NCBI RefSeq assembly: GCF_902652685.1
Contig: NZ_CACRUY010000006.1
Location: 83,391-147,390 of the forward strand
DNA length: 64,000 bases
Direction of reading: 5' to 3'
DNA from: Mycobacterium sp. Marseille-P9652
GTDB taxonomy: Bacteria > Actinomycetota > Actinomycetes > Mycobacteriales > Mycobacteriaceae
This document shows, one piece after another, positions 1 through 6,247 of the stretch. The notes beneath the pieces were generated by a model, which had not been told where the DNA came from, did not search any database, and saw only the letters and a list, made by a program, of their open reading frames with translations. Every line of letters starts with the position of its first letter. Positions within the stretch are counted from its first letter, which is position 1. The position numbers and the translations under genes were made by a program.

Positions 1-863
1 CTCTCGGAGATGCACGAGACGAGCCTGGACAGCCGGCCCCCCTCGACCATGGAGAACGACACGCTCGCCACCGTCTTCATGTTGCGCATGTACTCCAGGT
101 GGAACGGGGAGACGCTGCGCAGCGCGGCACGGCTCAGGTCGAGACTTCGCCCCGCCATTCGCGGCGAGGGGATCAGGGCGACGTCGCCTTCGTCGACGTC
201 GGGGATGTAACGCGACGCCTTGCGGGTGTAGATCTGCCGGGCCTGGGGCGGAATGTCGGTGGCCGGGAAGTGGTGGCCGAGGTAGCGCACCAGTCCCGGA
301 CGGCGGTCGTCGGCGACGATCTCCCCGTGCTCGTCGTCGTGGAACCGGTAGACCATGGCGCGGTCGAACCCGGTCAGGGTGCGCAGCGCCCCGGCCACGG
401 CGGCCTCGATGTCGGGCACGCTGGTCGCCTCGCCGATTGCCTGCGAGGCGTAGAGGACTGGGACGAGATTGGACTGGTCGTCGCCGTGTGACCGCTCGAT
501 CTCAATGACGACCTGTTCGTCCACCCGGTGCAGGATCACGTCGACCCGGACCTCGTGGGATGCGCCCCCGGCGGCCGGGCGCATCCCGTAGAGGTCGGGC
601 GACGACGGCCGGTAGCCGGTCTGCTCGATCGCCTGGCCGAGTCGCTCGCGTTCGTCGGGGGAAAAGATGCCCGCGAGCGGCGCGTCGAGAAGCCGCTCGG
701 GCGGCGCCCCGATCACCTCGGCGGTGTTGGCGCTGGCGTACGTGATCCGGTAATCCTCCAGATCGGCGGCCACCAGCGCGCCATGCGCCTGGATCCGGCC
801 GGACAGGTGCAGCTGCTCGCTCGCGCAGTCCTCGGGCGACACCGGACGGCCGTGGGCGGTCAT
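1..863 (-). CDS. bphP: Bacteriophytochrome (PAS-GAF part; 3' end beyond window)
   Basis: Red/far-red photoreceptor, visible for its first 287 residues before the left edge cuts it. A PAS-like domain (about 13-120) is followed by a GAF domain (about 135-287). Cys13, in EDCASEQLHL, sits where bacteriophytochromes attach biliverdin, just before the family signature SGRIQAHGAL. The GAF pocket shows Tyr172 (VYRF), PATDIP with Asp203, and SPFHLEYMRNM with His255, all hallmark phytochrome positions. The usual LWGLxxCHH motif is altered to LSRLVSCIS at 278-286. The ATG overlaps the bphO stop by 4 bp (ATGA), so the two are translationally coupled. The PHY and output domains lie outside the window, so signalling type (kinase or other) is unknown. 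Family assignment is firm; light responsiveness is inferred. Confidence 0.9.
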   Translation of the reverse strand, partial: MTAHGRPVSPEDCASEQLHLSGRIQAHGALVAADLEDYRITYASANTAEVIGAPPERLLDAPLAGIFSPDERERLGQAIEQTGYRPSSPDLYGMRPAAGGASHEVRVDVILHRVDEQVVIEIERSHGDDQSNLVPVLYASQAIGEATSVPDIEAAVAGALRTLTGFDRAMVYRFHDDEHGEIVADDRRPGLVRYLGHHFPATDIPPQARQIYTRKASRYIPDVDEGDVALIPSPRMAGRSLDLSRAALRSVSPFHLEYMRNMKTVASVSFSMVEGGRLSRLVSCISE

Positions 864-1549
864 CGGGCCGCGCCCGGGGTGGTGGATGGCCCGTCCAGGA
901 GGTCGCGTATCAACGCGAAGGCGGCGAGCGCGCCCGCGACCACCCGGTCCGGGTTCGCCCCGGATTCGCCGAACACATCGAGCGCCGTCCTGAAGCGACG
1001 CCAGAGCCGGCCAAGGTCGAGATTCTCCGAGGCGAAGAACGACCGGGGAAAGTCGGCGCCGCTGGAGGCGGCGAGGTTGGCGACGATCACCCGGCCGCCG
1101 AGGACCGACCCGGCCGCCACGTATGCCGCGCCCACCTTCTCGTCGCGGCCCCCGCGCAACCCGGTGGCCAGGACGGGCGCGTCCCGTCGGGGGCCTCCGG
1201 CCGCGCAAGGCACCCGCTCCCGCATCGACGCGATGTCCGCACGCAGCGCATGCGTCCGCGTCAGCAGGTCGACGCCCGTGCCGAGCGTGTTCGTGACCGT
1301 CTCCCGGCTGAACTCCGTGACCGCGGTGTGGAACGTCAGCAGCGCGTCGAGGACGGCCAGGTACTCAGATGCATCGGGGCGGGTGAAATCGAGACGCATG
1401 GCCGCCTCGGCGGTCCGGTGTGCGTGCGCCGTGCTCTGGCGGAGCACTCGTGAGAGGCGAGGCCCGCTCGGCCGGGCTGAAGCGGCAGCCCCGGCCCCGC
1501 GCGCGCTGGCGTGATCCACCCTCGGAGGATAGAGCGTCGCCGATGGCAC
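860..1549 (-). CDS. bphO: Biliverdin-producing heme oxygenase
   Basis: Heme oxygenase of the bacteriophytochrome-partner type, opening heme to biliverdin IXalpha, the chromophore precursor. Near residue 33 LRQSTAHAHRTAE fits LRxxTxxxHxxxE with the proximal heme His, and AGSVLGGRVI matches the distal-helix GSxLGG signature. About 229 aa from the ATG; a GTG ten codons in (VDHASARG) is an alternative because the conserved fold starts only at about residue 31. It lies 97 bp downstream of glnA1 on the same strand and overlaps the phytochrome start by 4 bp, giving a bphO-bphP operon. I do not recall this pair at the glnA1 locus of M. tuberculosis, so it is probably an acquired island. Confidence 0.85.
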   Translation of the reverse strand: MPSATLYPPRVDHASARGAGAAASARPSGPRLSRVLRQSTAHAHRTAEAAMRLDFTRPDASEYLAVLDALLTFHTAVTEFSRETVTNTLGTGVDLLTRTHALRADIASMRERVPCAAGGPRRDAPVLATGLRGGRDEKVGAAYVAAGSVLGGRVIVANLAASSGADFPRSFFASENLDLGRLWRRFRTALDVFGESGANPDRVVAGALAAFALIRDLLDGPSTTPGAAR

Positions 1550-1646
1550 TGGAACCGTAATCTCGCGACAACGACATAGGTGTGCCCCCCGCTTCGCGAC
1601 GCCGTGGCGGCCGCCGCGAAGCAGGTGGACTCACCCGATGGTCGGG

Positions 1647-3083
1647 TTAGACGTCGTAGTAGAGGGCGAATTCGTACGGGTGCGGCCGCACCTGAACCGG
1701 CAGGATCTCGTTCTCGCGCTTGAAGCTGATCCACGTCTCGATGAGGTCGGGCGTGAAAACCCCGCCCTCGGTGAGGTATTCGTGGTCCTCTTCCAGGCGG
1801 TCGATCACCGCGGACAGCTGGGTGGGCGCCTGCGGGATGTTGGCGGCCTCCTCCGGCGGGAGCTCGTAGAGGTCCTTGTCGACCGGCGCCTGCGGCTCGA
1901 TCTTCTTCTTGATCCCGTCCAGGCCCGCCATCAGCATGGCGGCGAACGCCAGGTAGGGGTTGCCCGACGAGTCGGGGCAACGGAACTCCAGCCGCTTCGC
2001 CTTCGGGTTGCTGCCGGTGATCGGGATACGCACGCAGGCCGAGCGGTTGCGCTGGCTGTACACCAGGTTGATCGGCGCCTCGAACCCGGGAACCAGCCGC
2101 TTGTAGGAGTTCACCGTCGGGTTGGTGAACGCCAGCAGCGACGGCGCGTGGTGCAGCAGGCCGCCGATGTAGTGGCGGGCGGTGTCCGACAGGCCGGCGT
2201 AACCGGTCTCGTCGTACATCAGCGGGTTGCCGTCCTTCCACAGCGACTGGTGGGTGTGCATGCCGGACCCGTTGTCACCGAACAGCGGCTTGGGCATGAA
2301 GGTGACCGTCTTGCCGTTCTGCCACGCGGTGTTCTTGACGATGTACTTATACAGCTGCATGTCGTCGGCGGCGTGCAGCAGCGTGTTGAACTTGTAGTTG
2401 ATCTCGGCCTGGCCGCCGGTGCCCACCTCGTGGTGGCCCTTCTCCAGGCTGAAGCCGGCCTTGATCAGGTTCTGCAGCATCTTGGCGCGCAGGTCGACGT
2501 AGTGGTCGACGGGCGCGACGGGGAAGTAACCGCCCTTGGGGCGCACCTTGTAACCGCGGTTGGGGCTGCCGTCGAGCTCGGTCGGCGAGCCGGTGTTCCA
2601 CCACCCGGAGATCGCGTCGATCTCGTAGAACGAGCCGTTGGTGCGCGAGTCGAAGCTGACCGAGTCGAAGATGTAGAACTCGGCCTCGGCGCCGAAGTAC
2701 GCGGTGTCGGCCACGCCGGTGCTCACCAAGTAGTTCTCGGCCTTGCGGGCGATGTTGCGCGGGTCGCGCGAGTACGGCTCAAGGGTGAACGGGTCGTGCA
2801 CGAAGAAGTTCAGGTTCAGCGTCGGGGCCTCGGTGAACAGGTCGATCTGTGCGGTGGCCGGGTCGGGGAGCAGCAACATGTCGGATTCGTGGATCGACTG
2901 GAACCCGCGGATCGACGAGCCGTCGAAGGCCAGGCCGTCCTCGAAGACGCTTTCGTCGAAAAACGAGACCGGAATTGTGAAGTGCTGCATGATGCCCGGC
3001 AAGTCACAGAACCGGACGTCGACAAACTCGATGCCTTGGTCCTTCACGAGTTTGAAGACGTCGTCGGGCGTCGTTTCCGTCAC
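1647..3083 (-). CDS. glnA1: Glutamine synthetase type I, GlnA1
   Basis: Makes glutamine from glutamate, ammonia and ATP; the main ammonium-assimilating enzyme, a cytoplasmic dodecamer also exported by pathogenic mycobacteria. 478 aa, the expected length. Visible features: FDGSSIRGF near the N-terminus, the metal-binding AEAEFYIF, the ATP-site [15 protein letters not shown], the NRSACVRIP glutamate-binding region and [10 protein letters not shown] carrying the adenylylation tyrosine (about Tyr406). Starts at GTG with AAGGAG seven bases upstream. A GlnR-like site lies about 75-90 bp upstream. In M. tuberculosis the adenylyltransferase gene glnE follows convergently; here the bphO-bphP pair intervenes. 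Confidence 0.98.
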
Positions 3084-4619: not shown

Positions 4620-5552
4620 CTACGGCGCCGAGGCGCGGCGGCGGGCGGCCTGCTCGTAGAGTCGACCCGCCCGGTACGAGGAGCGCACCAGCGGCCCGGC
4701 CAGCACCCCCGCGAAGCCGAGGGCCTCGGCGTGCTCGGCGAACTCGACGAACTCCTCGGGCCGCACCCAGCGCTCGACGGGGTGGTGGCGCGCCGACGGC
4801 CGCAGGTATTGGGTGATGGTGACGATGTCGCAACCGGCGGCGCGCAGGTCGGCCAGCGCGGCGCGCACTTCGTCGGGCGTCTCGCCCAGGCCCAGGATCA
4901 GGTTGCTCTTGGTGACCAGCCCGGCGTCGCGCGCCGCGGTCAGCACGTCCAAGCTGCGCCGGTAGGTGAACGCCGGGCGGATCCGCTTGAAGATGCGCGG
5001 CACCGTTTCGACGTTGTGCGCCAAAACTTCCGGCCGTGAGCCGAACACCTCGGCCAGCCGCGCGGGCTCGCCGTTGAAGTCGGGCACCAGGAGCTCGACG
5101 CCGGTCGACGGGTTGAGGTCCTTGATGGCGCGGACGGTCTCGGCATACAGCCAGGCCCCGCCGTCGGGCAGGTCGTCGCGGGCCACGCCCGTGATGGTGG
5201 CGTACCGCAGCCCCATGGTCCGGACGCTCTCGGCGACCCGGCGGGGCTCGTCGCGGTCCAGGGCGGCCGGCTTGCCGGTGTCGATCTGGCAGAAGTCGCA
5301 CCGACGGGTGCACTGGTCGCCGCCGATCAGAAACGTGGCTTCCCGGTCTTCCCAACACTCGAAGATGTTGGGGCAGCCGGCCTCCTCGCACACCGTGTGC
5401 AGACCCTCGCGCTTGACCAGGCCCTTGAGCTGGGTGTACTCGGGGCCCATCCGCGCCCGGACCCTGATCCACGGCGGCTTGCGCTCGATCGGGGTCTCCG
5501 CGTTGCGCACCTCGAGGCGCAGCAGCTTGCGGCCTTCCGGTGCGACAGTCAC
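4620..5552 (-). CDS. lipA: Lipoyl synthase LipA
   Basis: Radical-SAM enzyme inserting two sulfurs into octanoyl chains on E2 and GcvH proteins. 310 aa. Both Fe-S clusters are visible: the auxiliary cluster motif [12 protein letters not shown], and the radical-SAM motif CTRRCDFC. The C-terminal RSSYRAG serine that ligates the auxiliary cluster is present ([15 protein letters not shown]). Starts at GTG 5552, overlapping the lipB stop by 4 bp (GTGA), so lipB-lipA is a coupled operon. dlaT, whose product is a principal substrate, is encoded about 3 kb upstream. Confidence 0.97.
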
Positions 5553-6247
5553 GTCGCCGATGCTACGCGCGCGGCGGGCGAATGGTCCCGGACCGGCAGG
5601 GCGCCGTCCAGGGCATCGCACACGGCGACGGCGACGGCGGCGCGGACGTCGGCGACGGTGACGGTGCGGTCCAGCTCGGCCGACAGCGACGTCACACCCG
5701 CGTCGGTGATGCCGCACGGCACGATCGGGCCGTACGCGGACAGGTCGCAGTCACAGTTGAGCGCGAAACCGTGCAGGGTGGTCCCGCGCGACACCCGCAC
5801 CCCGATGGCGGCCACCTTGCGCTCGGGCCGTCCGCCGCCGGCCGGCACCCAGACCCCGGACCGGCCCTGGACGCGGATCGTGTCCAGGCCCAGGTCGGCG
5901 CACACCTTGATCAGCGATTCCTCAACGCGCCGAACGTAGTTCACCACGTCGAGCGGCTCGGCCAGCCCGATGATCGGGTAGCCCACCAGCTGCCCCGGCC
6001 CGTGCCAGGTGATCTTGCCGCCGCGGTCGGTGTCGACGACCGGGGCCCCGTCGGTGGGCCTCTCGTCCGGCTGCGTGCGGCGGCCGGCGGTGTAGACGGG
6101 CAGGTGCTCGAGAAGCAGCAGCGTGTCGGCACCGCCGGCGACCCTGGCGTCGGCCAATTCGCGCTGCAGTTGCCAGGCGGTGCGGTAGTCGACCGTCCCC
6201 AGCTGGCGAACGTCCACCGGAGCCGAGGCCGAGCGAATGGAGCTCAT
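5549..6247 (-). CDS. lipB: Octanoyltransferase LipB
   Basis: Moves octanoate from acyl carrier protein to lipoyl-domain lysines, first step of lipoate synthesis. 232 aa, the usual mycobacterial length. Motifs: the substrate-pocket [24 protein letters not shown] and [12 protein letters not shown] with the catalytic Lys, and FALNCDCDL with the catalytic Cys. ATG start; its stop overlaps the lipA start. An accessory SnoaL-like gene lies 51 bp upstream on the same strand, outside the lipB-lipA unit I remember from M. tuberculosis. Confidence 0.97.

Follow-up and report, generated by a model that had tools for sequence, protein, structure and literature searches.

Two adjoining genes of Mycobacterium sp. 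Marseille-P9652, bphO and bphP, probably constitute a self-contained operon for red-light sensing that tunes the synthesis of c-di-GMP, with BphO supplying the biliverdin. This reading is built on the gene structure, the motifs, their conservation, a promoter-like element, the phylogeny and the distribution of heme oxygenases, from which c-di-GMP synthesis driven by light is predicted as the most probable function. The genes lie at the edge of the window, the whole 64 kb stretch of DNA that was analysed (G000:C6:83391-147390; the genome comprises 5.70 Mb in 128 contigs). An earlier note on this DNA had described a bphO-bphP operon directly downstream of glnA1 in a Mycobacterium, and this was borne out: both genes are genuine by their minus-strand open reading frames and Pfam matches, they overlap by ATGA (863-860, common to the TGA stop of bphO at 862-860 and the ATG start of bphP at 863), and the hallmarks that had been named, HRTAE with the heme His, Cys13, PATDIP and SPFH, were found as claimed. 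The features are collected in Table 1.

Only residues 1-287 of bphP fall inside the window. The leftward extension proposed in the earlier note, for which a stretch of the same contig reaching beyond the window edge was used (L002 = G000:C6:66500-86400), added PHY and a GGDEF output and gave an intact protein of 678 aa; a disrupted bphP was ruled out, the frame being open over all 678 codons. On the plus strand, 3' of bphP and convergent with it, there are a GAF-ANTAR gene, a luciferase-like oxidoreductase gene, a thioesterase-family gene, glnE and glnA2, the first three assigned by Pfam and the last two by synteny. The names glnA1, glnE and glnA2 are presumed throughout from synteny with M. 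tuberculosis. The GAF-ANTAR gene (L002:14700-15437) was considered as a partner of bphP and rejected, no match to it being found in the corresponding stretches of E787 or M. helveticum, the two relatives that also carry the pair.

Table 1. Features of the bphO-bphP locus and of loci discussed in the text; positions refer to the window unless a locus label (L) is given.
Feature	Position	Strand	Remark
bphP, 5' part	1..863	-	residues 1-287 (N-terminal segment, PAS, most of GAF); start ATG 863
bphP, complete	L002:15718-17754, i.e. window 863 to -1173	-	678 aa, frame open throughout
bphO, divergent heme oxygenase	860..1519	-	219 aa; probable start GTG 1519; longest ORF to 1549
Cys13 codon, presumed biliverdin attachment site	825..827	-	bphP
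PATDIP motif of GAF domain	249..266	-	bphP; holds Asp203
His255 codon in SPFH, presumed conserved chromophore-pocket His	99..101	-	bphP
Ile285 codon, place of the usual second pocket histidine	9..11	-	bphP; Thr289 of SaBphP1
TATCCT, -10-like box (TANNNT)	1526..1531	-	six bases 5' of GTG; common to three species
Strong hairpin between glnA1 and bphO	1572..1644	-	terminator-like, without U tract; limits by hand from the fold
glnA1, type I glutamine synthetase	1647..3083	-	TIGR00653 match; neighbour
STAS-like and ABM-like ORFs	L171:2314-2703, 5162-5467; L172:2424-2825, 5277-5582; L177:2193-2585, 5071-5364

Pfam assigned GGDEF (129.5 bits), PHY (110.6 bits), PAS_2 (60.1 bits) and GAF (26.2 bits) to the complete BphP, all four above cut-off. 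A histidine-kinase output was rejected because Pfam gave GGDEF and no kinase; the output would be a diguanylate cyclase, whose predicted product is c-di-GMP. PMC9587094, in which about 140 phytochrome-activated diguanylate cyclases (PadCs) are listed, defines these proteins by an N-terminal Cys, DIP, PRXSF and GGDEF/GGEEF. All four motifs occur in BphP, as Cys13, the DIP of PATDIP (residues 200-205), the PRRSF of the PHY tongue and RFGGDEF, and Cys is present in 9/9 PadCs of the genus that extend to the N-terminal region. Asp203 of PATDIP is taken by us to be Asp207 of D. radiodurans BphP, and His255 of SPFH to be the conserved chromophore-pocket His. By a hand count, the stretch between the last PHY helix and DXLT, the linker, comprises 22 residues in BphP and 33 in IsPadC (+7), i.e. 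it is 11 residues shorter and corresponds to -4, one of the known PadC linker lengths, which BphP thus fits. By its motifs and linker, BphP is classed as a PadC of the architecture PAS-GAF-PHY-GGDEF. According to PMC9587094, the -4 branch is restricted to Actinobacteria, and the three proteins tested from it (two -4, one -7) absorb near 698/740-745 nm and respond to red light with a 2.2- to 13-fold activation. The NCBIfam equivalog for bacteriophytochrome BphP (NF041576) gave 216 bits, below its cut-off of 1040. The PDB matches spanning both the sensor and the cyclase were 5llw/5llx and the near-identical 6et7, which ranked top for the PHY-GGDEF part; 6et7 is named as IsPadC in PMC9587094.

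A PHY match was found in 99 of the 396 genomes of the genus (E <= 0.001; 98 over the cut-off; 110 rows) and a heme oxygenase match in 126, the two occurring together in 52 and within 6 kb of each other in 26. This co-occurrence gave a Fisher p of 8e-7 with kinship ignored. The remaining 47 of the 99 PHY genomes had no Pfam-detectable heme oxygenase, so that the phytochrome is not always paired with one, which counts against the proposed function. The output class was read for the 30 strongest of the 110 PHY rows (L003-L032), twenty others (L113-L132) and the present locus, with Pfam applied to L006, L003, L125 (SpoIIE), L126 (GGDEF-EAL) and three PadCs. Three classes were met, SpoIIE/PP2C, GGDEF-EAL and GGDEF; among the 30 strongest, the PP2C motif was present in 27, GGDEF in two (L003, L004) and neither in L025. 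The loci read yielded eleven PadCs of the genus, of which nine are full length and two partial. A tree of 38 rows, with several long branches, groups them in a single clade (100/100) that is distinct from the GGDEF-EAL-type proteins and from the main PP2C group. The suggestion of the earlier note that such a system is undescribed in mycobacteria holds in part: no description of a mycobacterial phytochrome was among the matches listed from open-licence literature (titles and abstract starts), but the PHY matches in about one quarter of the genomes show that the present case is not isolated.

Several other phytochrome loci of the genus were observed in the course of this reading. Seven proteins of about 930-950 aa (L126-L132) represent a separate lineage and align without a linker gap relative to the present PadC; for L126, Pfam gives PAS-GAF-PHY-GGDEF-EAL. 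In three of ten further loci, from genomes without a Pfam heme oxygenase, a PP2C phytochrome lies between a STAS-like ORF and an ABM-like ORF of about 100 aa, as called by Pfam for L171 (both) and L177 (ABM) and by likeness for the remainder. The ABM family includes the IsdG fold. Such loci are candidates for a light-driven partner switch and an unusual pigment source, and are worth testing. ORFs resembling response regulators and histidine kinases, judged from the sequence starts, lie near PP2C phytochromes at L170:6284-8499, L174:5537-8600 and L175:3-2191. In G336 (L124:7923-13819) a phytochrome-like ORF of 486 aa without visible output starts where a 1479-aa protein of the architecture CheB-CheR-PAS-GGDEF-EAL ends, Pfam being run on the large protein only; a split light/c-di-GMP sensor is possible there.

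Among the known systems, the PadC^-4 proteins of Actinobacteria (MtPadC, AsPadC) resemble BphP in architecture, in the four motifs, in the -4 linker and in the actinobacterial host, as described in PMC9587094. The differences within the -4 kind rest on L158 and L159, two proteins of the same class (39-40% identity) that fall beside the genus PadC clade in the tree, and not on the sequences of MtPadC or AsPadC. The pocket position holds Ile or Thr in the genus PadCs and Ala in L158 and L159, the nearest two proteins from outside the genus. IsPadC, L158 and L159 all possess the RxxD inhibitory site, with FxDLD and GGDEF 38 residues apart, whereas RxxD is absent from 11/11 genus PadCs, in which this spacing is 48-49 residues. 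RxxD is the product-inhibition site of diguanylate cyclases, and since it is missing, the output of BphP should escape canonical product inhibition. Overall, BphP is assigned to the actinobacterial -4 kind of PadC, with clade-specific changes in the pocket and in the inhibitory site.

IsPadC (PDB 5llw, 5llx, 6et7), presumably from Idiomarina, has the full architecture of BphP and provides the best PDB match to its PHY-GGDEF part, but differs in the +7 linker and in the presence of RxxD. The best PDB match to the photosensory part is SaBphP1 of Stigmatella aurantiaca (6bao), which also naturally lacks the pocket His, with Thr289 where BphP has Ile; it was deposited as a photoreceptor-histidine kinase, whereas BphP is a predicted cyclase. 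The GGDEF-EAL phytochromes of Cereibacter plasmids, which we take to be probably BphG1, match over 99% of BphP including GGDEF with 34% identity, but are annotated as EAL-domain proteins, and BphP has no EAL. A plasmid origin of bphP found no support: all 118 plasmid records matched stayed below 60% identity, and the 15 among them that were listed come from proteobacteria, their presumed class. The PP2C-output phytochromes of mycobacteria share the genus and the photosensory core with BphP and differ in their SpoIIE phosphatase output and in keeping the pocket His; eight of them in the tree form a separate branch.

The bphO product matched the Pfam family Heme_oxygenase (PF01126) over nearly its full length with 38 bits, the cut-off being 23. 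The His of HRTAE and the GSVLGG stretch, which are presumably the proximal heme His and the distal Gly-rich helix, are invariant in the three BphO proteins. No NCBIfam match was obtained even at E 1, and a PDB sequence search gave nothing significant, the best heme oxygenase (E 0.097, profile) ranking below an unrelated chain (0.074); this modest family support counts against the role assigned to BphO. A profile made from the three BphO proteins matched in three of the 396 genomes, namely the present one, M. helveticum and E787, and in addition a fragment of 38 N-terminal residues in G244 (E 1.6e-4). In the latter (L116:6678-8771) the putative promoter, the GTG and about 31 bphO codons are fused in frame to bphP by a natural deletion. 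An 81-base piece of bphO precedes bphP in G047 (E 7e-12 over six loci); G006 retains a promoter-like box and GTG only, too short for the profile, and no remnant was seen before bphP in G387, G228 and G120. The three genomes with bphO contain no other Pfam heme oxygenase, while all six with a full-length PadC and no bphO hold one or two unlinked heme oxygenases. This pattern suggests that the receptor depends on a heme oxygenase and that another such enzyme took the place of bphO in relatives, although the nine genomes are related and not independent. As four of the six (G047, G228, G120, G006) possess a second phytochrome, the unlinked enzyme need not serve the PadC, and two incomplete genomes (64% and 88%) with partial PadCs showed no heme oxygenase match, which also counts against the interpretation preferred here.

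The loss of the usual pocket histidine, whose position we take to be His290 in DrBphP numbering, bears most directly on whether light is the signal. This residue is replaced in 11/11 genus PadCs, by Ile in two (Ile285 of the present BphP, and E787) and by Thr in nine; Ser is found in G159a, a PP2C-type genus protein that joins L158 and L159 with weak support (89/58). His is found in the other 24 of the 38 rows, among which are L003, L126-L132 and, from the genus, eight PP2C rows, so that it is kept in 16 of the 17 PP2C-type and GGDEF-EAL-type genus rows, G159a being the exception. A cyclase lacking this His may respond weakly to light, and may mainly sense a non-light input such as the supply of biliverdin or heme, through its apo and holo forms; the Ile of BphP does count against light sensing. 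In other BphPs, alteration of the pocket His impairs photoactivity or stability (PMC6126659), and a comparison of apo and holo forms in PMC9587094 led to the suggestion that PadCs with a +2 linker might not be light sensors. However, BphP retains PRxSF as well as the Cys, the Asp of DIP, the Tyr of the GAF domain and the His of SPFH. For wild-type SaBphP1, with its Thr in the pocket, spectra of Pr-to-Pfr illumination are described in a figure legend of PMC6126659, and a response to red light is reported for those members of the -4 branch that were tested (PMC9587094). A predominantly non-light input is thus considered unlikely. That BphO degrades heme for iron use and adjoins bphP incidentally would agree with its weak family score and with the 74 of 396 genomes that have a heme oxygenase and no PHY match, but appears highly improbable, given that bphO adjoins bphP on the same strand in three species, with the ATGA overlap in this genome, and given the replacement pattern among the PadC genomes and the linked pairs counted above.

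Transcription from glnA1 and decay of the locus were weighed against the same preferred reading of a functional light-sensing unit. The earlier note had suggested read-through from a nitrogen-controlled glnA1 promoter, and the adjacency on one strand, with the bphO start 127 bases after glnA1, stands, as does the identical order glnA1, bphO, bphP in M. helveticum. Yet TATCCT or TATTCT followed by six bases and GTGGATC is kept in all three species with bphO, where the DNA 5' of the gene otherwise aligns poorly, and the bphO box agrees at the sequence level with mycobacterial leaderless promoters in both sequence and spacing. In M. tuberculosis, 73% of primary starts have a TANNNT box 7-12 bases ahead of them, and leaderless genes make up 26% of those with a primary start (PMC3898074). 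Across both strands of the window, TANNNT-N6-RTG occurs seven times, that of bphO included; this pattern was searched because a sigma-70 consensus scan, which returned no promoters, does not cover those of mycobacteria. From the conserved block, bphO probably starts at GTG 1519 with its own putative leaderless promoter, and the position 1549 given earlier marks only the longest ORF. A hairpin of -50.5 kcal/mol (z -4.5) separates glnA1 from bphO in this genome, which a U-tract terminator scan did not pick up, though M. helveticum has none between the two genes. E787 shows no glnA1 within the approximately 6 kb read 5' of bphO and still has the promoter block, so that read-through is unnecessary. 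Transcription of the pair mainly from glnA1, with nitrogen control as its consequence, is therefore quite improbable, and glnA1 probably lies outside the unit. In M. helveticum (L118:5395-5490) the last bases of glnA1 are present as several near-identical tandem copies 3' of the stop. Upstream of bphO in E787 there is a large ORF with matches to WD40 repeats and nSTAND (L119:2-3136), and the oxidoreductase adjoining bphP is a stub of 63 aa (L119:8848-9039), from which the locus looks rearranged. Both genes are under purifying selection: dN/dS, with ratios calculated by hand, was 0.19-0.26 for bphP (eight pairs) and 0.32 and 0.36 for bphO (two pairs); the single pairs compared for glnA1 and glnE gave 0.08 and 0.17, respectively. 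A decaying, functionless remnant might be read from the values of bphO above that of glnE and from the bphO remnants showing that this gene can be lost, but with values well under 1, open frames in 9/9 full-length bphP and 3/3 bphO compared, and intact motifs, it is scarcely credible.

For the light-sensing operon the following course of events may be proposed, in which biliverdin binding, photoconversion, cyclase activity and an activating rather than inhibiting effect of light are predicted steps. The putative leaderless promoter just 5' of bphO would drive both genes; BphO would open heme to biliverdin, which would attach at Cys13 of BphP. Red light would then alter the chromophore and the PHY tongue, the short coiled-coil linker of the -4 class would relay the change to the GGDEF dimer, and c-di-GMP synthesis would rise. 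The genome contains nine GGDEF and three EAL matches, and the lack of any match to a PilZ receptor in it counts against this reading. Regulation of pigment, which had been suggested earlier as a possibility, found no support, carotenoid control included: a single SQS_PSY gene (phytoene/squalene synthase family) is located on another contig, and no link to the pair was seen.

Light in mycobacteria has mostly been discussed in terms of pigment induction by blue light. With somewhat more doubt than confidence, one may speculate that mycobacteria are a largely red-light-sensing genus, phytochromes occurring in its genomes in separate lineages, and that in the type described here, having neither the pocket His nor the product-inhibition site and provided with a leaderless mRNA and a private heme oxygenase, red light could raise c-di-GMP without canonical I-site feedback. 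The gene making the pigment was apparently lost in relatives while the photoreceptor stayed, and among the PadCs and their relatives the pocket residue varies naturally (Ile, Thr, Ala, Ser) at a site that is reportedly important for phytochrome photochemistry. If the proposal is true, red light would be an input to c-di-GMP in some mycobacteria, through a compact unit of two genes that is directly testable.
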